A stretch of 21,433 nt of DNA from a virus, in IMG/VR virus record IMGVR_UViG_3300005265_000570, positions 1 to 21,433 of that record, one strand, 5' to 3'. Each line of letters starts with the position of its first letter. Position 1 is the stretch's first letter. The position numbers were made by a program, and so were the translations under genes. Of this stretch, positions 10,009 to 15,371 are shown piece by piece. The notes under the pieces are model-generated. The model ran no database searches. It had not been told where the DNA came from and saw nothing but the letters and a program-made list of their open reading frames with translations.

Positions 10009-10014
10009 ACTTGT

Positions 10015-10113
10015 AGTACACAGTGAGCACAGGGGACGTACAGTGTGCTACAGCGGTATACCACAGGGGCCGGTTTGAAACTGAGATGTGCTAACGGGGT
10101 AAGCACACTGTAC
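10015..10113. repeat. Inverted and related repeats upstream of parM-like gene (parC-like)
   Basis: A 12-bp perfect inverted repeat, GTACAGTGTGCT at 10038-10049 and AGCACACTGTAC at 10102-10113, with a related copy AGTACACAGTGAGCAC at 10016-10031 and a partial copy GATGTGCTAAC near 10085-10095. In ParMRC systems the centromere parC is a cluster of repeats upstream of parM and is bound by ParR. Position and repeat content fit that role. Because they are transcribed, they could also fold into a hairpin ahead of the start codon. Confidence 0.6.
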
Positions 10114-10147
10114 TACTGGGAGGGATGGGCGGGAGAAAGGAGATTCT

Positions 10148-11122
10148 ATGTCAACTGTGAGGATAGTAGCCACCGACATCGGGAACGGCTTTTCGAAGGG
10201 GTGTTCTTCGACGGCGACGGCAATTTTCCCCTCTGTGGTTGGCCAGGCTGTCGAGACCGACTTCGAGGGTCTCGCCGAACGAGATGGGATGGTCATTCAA
10301 CCAGATGGGCTGGAGCCATACTTTGTCGGCAATTTGGCACGCAGGATGTCGCGCTTCAAAAGTGCAGTCCTCGACCGTTCCCGGATCGGGTCTCCGTTCT
10401 ATCGTGTTTTATTCGAGACGATGTTAACCCGATTATGCAAGCAACGCTCTAATCTGCGAGTAGTGCTCCAGCTACCCGTCGGCTGGTACTCCGACCGCCG
10501 GGAACTCGATGCACTGCTTGGCGAGCATCGAGGCACAATTAACGGACGGCAGTACATCTACCACGTGGACAAGCTCCTGGTAACACCAGATGGTTTTGGG
10601 GCGTTGTGTTCAGCCATGCTCAATCAGCGATGTCGAATCAAAGACCAAGCCCTGGCCGAGGGCCGAGTTGGGGTCATAGACCTCGGATCGAGAACGACCA
10701 ATCTCTCGCTGTACGACAGCATGACATTTATCCCGACTGCGTCGGGATCAGTTGACACCGGGTTAGTCAAGCTGTGGCAAGCGGTGCACGAAGACCTGTC
10801 ACGGCGGTTTCAGGTGGATTGGTCATTGCACGAGGTTGACGAGGCGATCCGCCGTGGTGGTGTCCAAGTAGCCGGGAAATTCCACGCGATTGACGCTGAG
10901 CCTCATGCAACGGCGATGGCGGAGGAGTTACGGGGACACGCTCAGACCATGTGGGGATTGGGACTGAAACTAGATCGCATCCTGCTCGCCGGCGGGGGCT
11001 GCGGGGTACCCCGGTTAGTGGAGGCTCTCACGAGCCTGATGCCTCACGCCCGGCCCGTCGCCGAGCCTGTCATGGCAAATGCCGTGGGCGGTTTCCGCTT
11101 CGGCTGCTTGGAGGTGTGGTAG
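10148..11122 (+). CDS. parM: ParM/Alp-like actin family ATPase
   Basis: 324 residues, ATG at 10148 with AAAGGAGATTCT upstream. Actin-like ATPases of this type polymerise into filaments that push plasmid or phage DNA apart. The fold signatures are visible: phosphate-1 motif ATDIGNGFSK (8-17), phosphate-2 motif VIDLGSRTTNLSLYD (176-190), and the adenosine-binding ILLAGGGCGVP (278-288). The closing MANAVGGFRFG matches the ANARG-type segment of ParM proteins. Length equals the usual 320-330 residues. The start and stop of this and the following ParR-like gene overlap by one base, and repeat sequences lie just upstream, giving a complete parC-parM-parR arrangement. Function as DNA segregation is inferred; some phages use related filaments to position replicating DNA. 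Confidence 0.85.
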   Translation: MSTVRIVATDIGNGFSKGCSSTATAIFPSVVGQAVETDFEGLAERDGMVIQPDGLEPYFVGNLARRMSRFKSAVLDRSRIGSPFYRVLFETMLTRLCKQRSNLRVVLQLPVGWYSDRRELDALLGEHRGTINGRQYIYHVDKLLVTPDGFGALCSAMLNQRCRIKDQALAEGRVGVIDLGSRTTNLSLYDSMTFIPTASGSVDTGLVKLWQAVHEDLSRRFQVDWSLHEVDEAIRRGGVQVAGKFHAIDAEPHATAMAEELRGHAQTMWGLGLKLDRILLAGGGCGVPRLVEALTSLMPHARPVAEPVMANAVGGFRFGCLEVW

Positions 11123-11466
11123 TGAAAACGAAAACGAAGAGGATATTGGGACTACCCGATTATCAGGCATTGCTAGAAGAGTTACGGGTTATGGGGCTAA
11201 ATTCCGAACGAGACCGGCTCCAGGTACGATTAACGGCCTCCGCGCGGGATCGCGTAGTGGCCATTATCCTCGATCATCTCCAGGCCGGCGGAGAGAACGT
11301 CAGCGAGTGGGTTAAGGAAGCCGTGCTGATGAGGATTGGGCTTCTTGACAATTTGCTATCTACCGTCGAGGAGGAGAAGGATGAAGCTCCTGTGGAGGTT
11401 GAACCTGAACTATCGAGGGACGTGATCCAGAATGTTCTCCAGTCATTCACTACGGGAGGGATGTAA
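11122..11466 (+). CDS. parR: ParR-like DNA-binding adaptor
   Basis: 114 residues from GTG 11122, which overlaps the last base of the parM-like stop codon and has GGAGGTGTGG upstream. The segment DRLQVRLTASARDRVVAIILDHLQAGGENVSEWVKEAVLMRI (described by its parts) fits a ribbon-helix-helix fold: a beta strand RLQVRLTA followed by two helices. The C-terminal 35 residues are very acidic and end in a hydrophobic helix ELSRDVIQNVLQSF, as in ParR proteins, whose tail contacts ParM filament ends. Position right after the actin-like gene supports the call. I infer that it binds the repeats at 10015-10113 and may repress the operon promoter that lies beside them. Confidence 0.7.
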   Translation: MKTKTKRILGLPDYQALLEELRVMGLNSERDRLQVRLTASARDRVVAIILDHLQAGGENVSEWVKEAVLMRIGLLDNLLSTVEEEKDEAPVEVEPELSRDVIQNVLQSFTTGGM

Positions 11467-14001: not shown

Positions 14002-14250
14002 ATGGGACTGGACATCTGGTTTCGTGAAGACATCACCAACGCACTGAAAGCCGCCGAGGCTGCATCGGCCACCACCGTGGCGGCAATGGAACACGCACTG
14101 GTAGGAGCAGGACAGACTACAGCACCCGACCCTCGCTACCTGCGGGCATACCGCGAAGGGTGGCGTGCTGCTCTTGTTACGGTTGCCCTGGCGTTCGGTT
14201 TGGAGGATGACACCGCGAGGCGCTGCGAAGACAAACTGCTATTGCGTTGA
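14002..14250 (+). CDS. Small hypothetical helical protein
   Basis: 82 residues, ATG at 14002 directly after the upstream stop codon, with ACAGGAGGG upstream. The sequence is helical and rich in Ala (ITNALKAAEAASATTVAAMEHALV, YREGWRAALVTVALAFGLED), has no clear membrane span, and ends RRCEDKLLLR. Last gene of the operon that begins with the FtsK-like gene; a strong terminator follows at 14265. No family recognised. Confidence 0.6.
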   Translation: MGLDIWFREDITNALKAAEAASATTVAAMEHALVGAGQTTAPDPRYLRAYREGWRAALVTVALAFGLEDDTARRCEDKLLLR

Positions 14251-14264
14251 ACCTGATATCCCCT

Positions 14265-14296
14265 GCCCCGTCCTCGGTGTGAGGACGGGGCTTTTT
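14265..14296 (+). terminator. Rho-independent terminator
   Basis: GCCCCGTCCTC (14265-14275) pairs with GAGGACGGGGC (14281-14291) around a 5-base loop, followed by five T. It closes the operon of the FtsK-like gene and marks the start of the large non-coding region. Confidence 0.93.
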
Positions 14297-14336
14297 CATA
14301 GTATGCCTTTTTCCCATAGTATCATTTTCATAGTAT
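14297..14336. repeat. Three CATAGTAT repeats
   Basis: CATAGTAT occurs at 14297-14304, 14315-14322 and 14329-14336. The first and third are embedded in a longer shared sequence, TTTTCATAGTATGCCTTTT, so they look like a duplicated unit. They lie directly left of the 21-bp inverted repeat. Confidence 0.7.
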
Positions 14337-14380
14337 GCCTTTTCCTAGTACTAGGAAAGCTAGTACTAGGAAAAGGCATA
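14334..14380. repeat. 21-bp perfect inverted repeat
   Basis: TATGCCTTTTCCTAGTACTAG (first arm, 14334-14354; inner 20 bases shown only in part: ATGCC, TTTT, CCTAGTACTAG) matches the reverse complement at 14360-14380 with a 5-base spacer GAAAG. Each arm also contains the self-complementary core CTAGTACTAG. As DNA it could be a site for a dimeric protein; as RNA it would be a very stable hairpin. No T-tract follows on the plus strand. Confidence 0.85.
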
Positions 14381-14435
14381 GGCATAAAGAAGACACAGTA
14401 TTAAAGAAGAAGAAAGGGTGGAAGAAAACGAAAGG

Positions 14436-14454
14436 CGCGAGCCTGCGGCTCGCG
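14436..14454 (+). other. GC-rich 8-bp hairpin
   Basis: CGCGAGCC and GGCTCGCG form a perfect stem with a 3-base loop. It is followed by GAGGG rather than T residues, so it is not a typical terminator. Confidence 0.6.
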
Positions 14455-14531
14455 GGAGGGTGATCTTCTGCTATTCTGCCAAATACCGCCGAAATCCCTT
14501 TGACTTGCTTTCGGAATCCCCTCAAAAATCT

Positions 14532-14583
14532 TTTACAAATTATTTACGCAAAATTTACGCAATCTTTACGCATAGAATTCGCA
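14532..14583. repeat. Helically phased TTTACGCA direct repeats (iteron-like)
   Basis: Exact TTTACGCA copies start at 14543, 14554 and 14565, with degenerate copies at 14532 (TTTACAAA) and 14576 (AATTCGCA). All five are spaced exactly 11 bases, one DNA helical turn, so a protein bound to each would lie on one face of the DNA. The stretch is A/T-rich. It could be an array of iterons for a replication initiator, or operators controlling the promoter that follows, whose -35 region it covers. Confidence 0.75.
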
Positions 14584-14588
14584 AAACA

Positions 14589-14597
14589 TGGTATACT
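14589..14597 (+). promoter_or_regulatory. Extended -10 promoter
   Basis: TGGTATACT at 14589-14597 has the TGn extension and a strong -10 box. No good -35 box is seen at 16-18 bases upstream, where the phased repeats lie, so activation or repression by a repeat-binding protein is plausible. Transcription would start near 14604 and produce the structured RNA region. Confidence 0.6.
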
Positions 14598-14603
14598 ATA
14601 ACT

Positions 14604-14945
14604 AGTTCAAATAGGCAATCGGCTAAGAAGAGTAGCCCAATTTTTTTACCCTCGCTGACTACTCAAAATAGCCAAACAGCTAGACCGGAACTTGACAACA
14701 AAATAGCTCCCCCCGACAGGGCCAGGGGAAGAAACGCTCACCAGGGTGAGCTACCCGCAAGGGTCTGCGAAAGCGGAAGAGCCGGACGGGCCGGATAGGG
14801 AAGGGAGAGAGACAAGCCAAAAAAACGAATTCCGCTTTGGTGCTCGCTGCCGAGGTATCCAGGTAATCCTGGCGACGGGGCAGTGTAGGAGGTTCGAGTC
14901 CTCCTGGCGGCGAGCACCAGTGCAGAATTCGCTGCACGGGTCACA
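14604..14945 (+). ncRNA. Candidate structured non-coding RNA with tRNA-like 3' domain
   Basis: Three hairpins stand side by side at 14736-14751 (GCTCACC/GGTGAGC), 14753-14764 (ACCC-GCAA-GGGT) and 14765-14776 (CTGC-GAAA-GCGG); the last two have GNRA tetraloops, a sign of folded RNA. Further right, a 14-bp helix (14838-14851 with 14906-14919, one G-U pair) encloses a 5-bp hairpin CCAGG-TAAT-CCTGG (14859-14872) and a tRNA-like T-arm GGAGG-TTCGAGT-CCTCC (14888-14904). Another 6-bp hairpin GTGCAG/CTGCAC (14920-14937) abuts it, and GAATTC sites flank the helix. It cannot be folded as a standard tRNA, as the middle is too short and no 7-base anticodon loop is seen. The RNA ends just before the ribosome site of the gene at 14966, so it could also be a long leader. 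Boundaries are approximate and I know no matching RNA family. Confidence 0.5.
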
Positions 14946-14965
14946 ATCCTACAGGAGGGTTTCAA

Positions 14966-15274
14966 ATGGCAAGCTCAATAATCGCGACCGACGTAACTTC
15001 CACCATTAGGGCAGAGGATTTCGTAACGGAGTTCGATGTACCCGGCGACACTTACGATGTCGAACAGTACAACAAGGGGCTGCAGCTCACCCGTGACTAC
15101 AACGAAATCCACATCTCGATATACAACGTCTGGTCAGCAAGTGCAGCCAAGGATGGCAGCGACCGGGCCTGTTTCTCTTATGAGACGCTCGGTTTGCACA
15201 GGTCGACGGCTGCCCTAGTCCAGGGCTGGCTGGACGGTGGAATTAAGATCATCCGCCACACATTGGTGGACTGA
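14966..15274 (+). CDS. Hypothetical protein downstream of structured RNA
   Basis: 102 residues, ATG at 14966 with ACAGGAGGG upstream. The sequence alternates strands and helices (IIATDVTSTIRAEDFVTEFDVPGDTYDVEQYNKGLQ, LTRDYNEIHISIYNVWSAS, then HRSTAALVQGWLDGGIKIIRHTLVD in outline) and has no membrane segment or known motif. It is the first gene after the large non-coding hub and lies in its possible transcript, followed by two strong hairpins. Three genes here (14966, 15372, 15978) share almost the same ribosome site, suggesting similar expression levels. No function can be assigned. Confidence 0.65.
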   Translation: MASSIIATDVTSTIRAEDFVTEFDVPGDTYDVEQYNKGLQLTRDYNEIHISIYNVWSASAAKDGSDRACFSYETLGLHRSTAALVQGWLDGGIKIIRHTLVD

Positions 15275-15281
15275 TCACCCC

Positions 15282-15337
15282 GGAGCTCGGTTCCGAGCTC
15301 CACTGGTATGGCTGACTTCGGTCGGCCATACCAGTGG
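15282..15337 (+). other. Two tandem hairpins, one with a UUCG tetraloop
   Basis: First hairpin GGAGCTCGG-TT-CCGAGCTCC at 15282-15301. Second, 17-bp stem with one G-T pair, 15300-15316 with 15321-15337, loop TTCG at 15317-15320. The two share their boundary bases. No T-tract follows, so this may be an RNA-processing or stability element between the genes at 14966 and 15372 or a weak terminator. Confidence 0.6.
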
Positions 15338-15371
15338 CATTCGGAACTATCTGCAAAAACAGGAGGGTACA

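Follow-up and report, generated by a model that had tools for sequence, protein, structure and literature searches.

The question raised by this locus is what function is served by 715 bases of phage DNA in which repeats, a long inverted repeat, A/T-rich stretches and a potential structured RNA are packed together, and which an earlier note regarded as a candidate replication origin and/or a new RNA locus. The record, IMGVR_UViG_3300005265_000570, is viral, linear and 21,433 bases long (hereafter the window). The window represents part of the genome of a tailed phage, as indicated by its recognised genes, which include a T4-like portal, a large terminase, a ParM-like actin, an FtsK/SpoIIIE-like ATPase and an AAA+ ATPase; genes in the left part lie mostly on the minus strand, and those in the right part, from about 10 kb, on the plus strand. 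The 715 bases (14251-14965) are exactly the space between the stop codon of the ORF at 14002-14250 and the ATG of the ORF at 14966-15274, and the ORFs within them lack the high third-position GC that is typical of most real genes of the window, so the region is a true intergenic gap and was correctly described as non-coding. From left to right, the gap contains a terminator, the CATAGTAT repeats, an inverted repeat, 11-bp repeats, a -10-like site, a leader and a stem (Table 1). Our analysis suggests a probable role as switchboard for the genes downstream rather than as a replication origin.

Table 1. Features in and directly after the intergenic gap
Feature	Position	Strand	Description	Basis
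Intrinsic terminator of the upstream genes	14265-14296	+	12-pair stem, then a T run; perfect 11-bp arms	
Array A	14297-14339	.	Three copies of CATAGTAT(G/C), spacing 18 and 14 bp	Repeat search
Inverted repeat, operator-like	14334-14380	.	Perfect, 21 bp, 5-nt spacer	Repeat search and shuffles
Array B	14532-14586	+	Four 11-bp repeats (TTTACAAATTA, TTTACGCAAAA, TTTACGCAATC, TTTACGCATAG) and a degenerate fifth; helix-phased; ends beside the -10	
Extended -10-like site	14589-14597	+	TGgTATACT; transcription start predicted near 14604	Read from sequence
Putative 5' leader	14604-14825	+	222 nt, weakly structured	Fold z = -0.71
tRNA-like element	14826-14931	+	106 nt, imperfect 26-nt arms	Repeat search, folding, model scans
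Shine-Dalgarno of the next gene	14952-14959	+	CAGGAGGG	Sequence and pairing analysis
Downstream gene	14966-15274	+	102 amino acids, no family recognised; presumably the leader's first target	ORF list, family searches

The left part of the gap begins with the terminator, which would end the upstream operon. The perfect inverted repeat that overlaps array A is the longest in the window (21 bp, against a maximum of 12 bp in shuffles of the region), and it contains two CTAGTACTAG palindromes (at 14345 and 14360) that are 15 bp apart; the tandem repeats and long inverted repeat reported earlier are thus confirmed. Array A and the CTAGTACTAG palindromes would together bind a dimeric DNA-binding protein.

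The right part of the gap is dominated by array B and the sequences that follow it. The direct repeats at 14532-14575 give 25 of 33 possible matches at a lag of 11 bp, the best value in the window (shuffles reach at most 19), and the repeat type, TTTACGCA, is absent elsewhere in the window. These repeats sit in the most A/T-rich stretch of the gap, and the gap holds both of the window's lowest-GC 100-bp stretches (29% and 33%), in agreement with the earlier description of A/T-rich DNA with helically phased repeats. The promoter that was proposed alongside them stands only in part: an extended -10-like sequence is present, but it has no -35 and is not listed by a sigma-70 consensus scan. Thus, of the dense features originally described, the repeats, the inverted repeat, the low GC and the RNA fold (see below) are upheld, whereas the promoter is weak. 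As read from the sequence, this site is a probable promoter, and it is the softest element of the gap. In PhoB-type promoters, an activator takes the place of the -35. Array B, which is phased at 11 bp and abuts a -10 without a -35, would most likely serve as an activator (or repressor) box; its helix pitch and its position a few bases from the -10 suit an activator that replaces the -35, and also a ParR-type centromere. The putative leader downstream contains a weak terminator-like hairpin (14621-14648) and is not significantly structured relative to shuffles.

The proposal of a replication origin is not supported. The cumulative GC skew climbs through the gap without a switch, and its slope changes near 9.5 kb, at the point where the genes switch direction; DnaA-like boxes in the region occur at the chance level, with no excess; and no initiator family is recognised among the proteins searched in this 21-kb fragment. 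An origin is rejected on these three grounds. The density of features had been taken as typical of an origin or of an RNA gene, and the RNA part is supported as a structure; the repeats, the A/T-rich DNA and the promoter, however, are no less characteristic of operators, activator boxes or a partition centromere. By analogy, the repeats could serve replication or segregation as a DNA element, either origin iterons or the parC centromere of a phage ParM-type partition system, and we consider this improbable. The window does encode a ParM-like actin (10148-11122; PF17989, with a partition-protein match), and a small gene (11116-11466) overlaps the end of parM in the position expected for ParR. 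ParR of plasmid R1 binds 11-bp direct repeats (PMC9426499), and array B likewise consists of four 11-bp direct repeats, placed in tandem beside a promoter, as in R1 parC (ParMRC), in the lowest-GC region of a replicon with a ParM-like gene. Unlike R1 parC, however, array B is not next to parM, and its four or five repeats all lie on one side. It is 3.4 kb from parM, while the usual site of parC, directly upstream of parM, is occupied here by another repeat-rich stretch (10013-10116). The product of 11116-11466 matches no family that would identify it as ParR, and the skew and the DnaA boxes argue against origin iterons as they do against an origin.

Both of these neighbouring sequences have features of their own. 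The product of 11116-11466 looks like a ribbon-helix-helix protein by sequence, with no family match, and structure predictions for it and for the product of gene 14966 (pLDDT of 47 and 35, respectively) are too poor to use. In the stretch at 10013-10116, upstream of the parM-like gene, a promoter close to consensus (TTGACA..TACTAT) is followed by an inverted repeat with perfect arms of 12 bp (GTACAGTGTGCT/AGCACACTGTAC) and by interspersed TGTGCT repeats; the stretch is likely to be an operator or parC.

The structured RNA is borne out as a predicted structure. The fold of 14825-14940 has a z score of -4.7 and none of 200 shuffles is as stable, and the core of the tRNA-like element alone gives z = -4.68. 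The predicted fold comprises a long end helix, which includes an inner helix of 16 bp (14837-14852/14905-14920), a hairpin CCAGG-UAAU-CCUGG (14859-14872) and a T-arm GGAGG-UUCGAGU-CCUCC (14888-14904). The T-stem, which has 5 bp and the loop TTCGAGT, runs without a gap into the 16 uninterrupted pairs, and a T-arm stacked on a helix in this gapless way characterises the acceptor/T half of tRNA. Covariance models for tRNA-Sec and mascRNA put acceptor and T-arm at 14845-14912 of this strand; the matches are weak and lie below the cut-offs of the models. We scanned 1.6 Mb of fetched loci for a T-arm with a directly stacked helix of at least 8 pairs; besides this element (present in L001 and L002, which are copies of the window), only one case was found, with 9 pairs (L050), and none is as long. 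Shuffles of all 1.6 Mb yielded a single match with at least 8 pairs.

Relatives of the element were sought in phage and plasmid DNA, among viral contigs collected with p14966, FtsK, ParM and AAA+, with the exact T-arm pattern, and through TerL and the portal. The best relatives share 45% identity in the portal and 41% in TerL; the searched records of these relatives lack the RNA and the other tested genes, and no near relative of the phage or homologue of the RNA element was found among the phage and plasmid DNA and viral contigs searched. The sole DNA match in a relative, of 20 nt in G010, lies inside its portal gene and was dismissed as chance.

Comparison with known RNA families also leaves the element without a match. 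A scan of the window at the Rfam gathering thresholds is empty, and lenient scans return mostly miRNA models on the long inverted repeat, together with weak tRNA-like models. For three further candidates, packaging RNA, retron RNA and self-cleaving ribozymes, neither a partner gene or core motif nor an Rfam match was seen. A true tRNA is rejected because the element has no D-arm and no 7-nt anticodon loop (its middle loop has 4 nt) and because ARAGORN reports no tRNA gene in the window; a tmRNA is rejected because neither ARAGORN nor Rfam finds one there. The element shares with tRNA and tmRNA a consensus T-arm stacked without a gap on an acceptor-type helix, but differs from them in the missing D-arm and anticodon loop, in an acceptor helix that is twice as long, and in ends that are not free. 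The predicted shape thus matches no known family and is supported as a structure far beyond chance.

Several explanations may account for such a structure. The best of them, which by analogy we place somewhat short of an even chance, is that the gap is a control region for phage transcription and translation, with a regulated promoter and a leader that carries a cis-acting tRNA-like domain. The terminator, repeats, -10, stem and Shine-Dalgarno stand in the fitting position and order for this, and a transcript from about 14604 would carry a 5' leader ending in the tRNA-like domain, just before the Shine-Dalgarno. Such a domain would most likely act in cis on the mRNA of gene 14966, either through better loading of ribosomes or because an enzyme that handles tRNAs, for example RNase P, recognises it and perhaps processes the transcript. 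A cis role is favoured because the stem lies just before the Shine-Dalgarno, with no convincing terminator on the plus strand between it and the gene, and because tRNA-like leaders are known to raise translation: such leaders, and real tRNAs grafted before a Shine-Dalgarno, do so 2- to 6.3-fold in vitro (PMC9142559). The element resembles the yjdF leader of that study in having a tRNA-like fold in an mRNA leader right before the Shine-Dalgarno, with a complementary 3' strand of the T-arm, but yjdF has a four-helix junction where the stem has three helices, and an acceptor helix of 4-8 pairs where the stem has at least 16. Counting against cis control are the missing D-arm and D-loop partner and the 4-nt loop of the middle hairpin, so that an elbow of D- and T-loops is not evident. 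This elbow is thought to be important in yjdF. The lack of a -35 at the promoter counts against the control-region reading as well. The closer analogy, a switch in which the folded T-arm leaves the ribosome site free and the opened 3' strand of the T-arm covers the Shine-Dalgarno, as in the competition by which yjdF works (PMC9142559), merits little credence on the modelled energies. Positions 14896-14906 can indeed pair with 14952-14962 over 11 contiguous positions (a core of 7 Watson-Crick pairs and 4 weaker ones), the best pairing among the phage genes compared, and an alternative helix (14846-14851/14879-14884) appears in simulated chain growth. The switch is rated low because the tRNA-like fold wins over this pairing by about 10 kcal/mol in the model and because CCTCC suits almost any Shine-Dalgarno: the scores of other genes come close (21 versus 24), and 4 of 400 shuffles reach the score. 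The Rfam model of yjdF, moreover, is not among the window matches up to E = 10.

Two other explanations remove the element from the control of gene 14966. That it is what remains of a tRNA gene, or of an attachment site within such a gene, would agree with a consensus T-arm that has 7 acceptor-like pairs behind it and with ACCA at 14916-14919; this is very unlikely, since decay would not preserve a 5' complementary strand over 16 perfect pairs, past the acceptor, and since ARAGORN finds no tRNA and no integrase is recognised among the window proteins searched. Alternatively, the stem may be a separate small RNA acting in trans, a tRNA mimic that serves as decoy or scaffold like bacterial Y RNA and is either cut from the downstream mRNA or independent of it. 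We regard this too as unlikely, although not to the same degree. YrlA RNAs combine a large stem, formed by their ends, with a tRNA-like part (PMC8394870), a plan that the 106-nt element resembles, and phage Y RNAs adjoin Ro60 genes in several phages. The stem, however, is not directly followed by a terminator, and the 21-kb fragment contains no TROVE/Ro60 gene. To obtain real phage Y RNAs for comparison, a Ro60 query from a distantly related phage, a 174-kb contig (G020), was used, which gave Ro60-like matches in 359 phage records, and ten loci were fetched. The YrlA model (RF02553) detects RNAs next to Ro60 in five of the ten (L119, L120, L122, L124 and L125; 33-47 bits), yet finds nothing in the window up to E = 10. 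The YrlA RNAs are alike in their large 5'/3' end stem, their copy of the tRNA T-arm, their similar length and their occurrence in phages; their order, from model matches and folds, is T-arm, acceptor-like hairpin and D-arm, whereas the window element runs from acceptor strand through hairpin and T-arm to acceptor strand and contains no D-arm motif (TAGCTC..GAGC). The Ro60-binding motif is GNCGAAN0-1G in a stem, and no instance occurs in 14500-15000 on either strand. Identity with YrlA is therefore rejected on arm order, Ro60 motif and covariance model.

The loci examined along the way contain further RNAs and genes of note. In G020 itself, a Ro60/TROVE protein (L118 7127-8713) occurs in a phage with a distant T4-like portal and has no YrlA-like RNA next to it; the Y RNA of this phage may be of another type. 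The Gordonia phages GMA2 (L120 3207-3618) and Sixama (L124 3444-3865) have tmRNA genes (94.6 and 88.1 bits) that stand among tRNAs behind Ro60 and are unannotated in the records, and GMA2 also has a Pistol ribozyme match between tRNA genes (L120 3928-3984; 56.8 bits, cut-off 34.5). In Rhodococcus phage Trina, a pseudo 'tRNA-OTHER' (L126 1113-1321) is annotated directly before Ro60; other phages have their Y RNA at this site, and the annotation probably misnames one. Within the window, the next intergenic gap (15283-15340) holds a strong hairpin, GGAGCTCG-GTTC-CGAGCTCC, and a second one with the stem CCACTGGTATGGC/GGCCATACCAGTGG and no T run; these may be a structured mRNA spacer or a processing site.

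The locus has implications beyond this phage. One lesson is that non-coding phage DNA so densely packed with features is not necessarily an origin. If the stem acts in cis, it would be a natural tRNA-like leader that controls translation, an effect so far demonstrated with yjdF and with grafted tRNAs. It is also conceivable, if doubtful, that the element represents a phage RNA of a new class, a mimic of tRNA that keeps the standard (unpermuted) order and has a T-arm on an extra-long acceptor-type helix, and which as an mRNA leader controls or processes phage transcripts. To our knowledge, few tRNA-shaped RNAs of DNA phages are known besides true tRNAs, tmRNA and Y RNAs.
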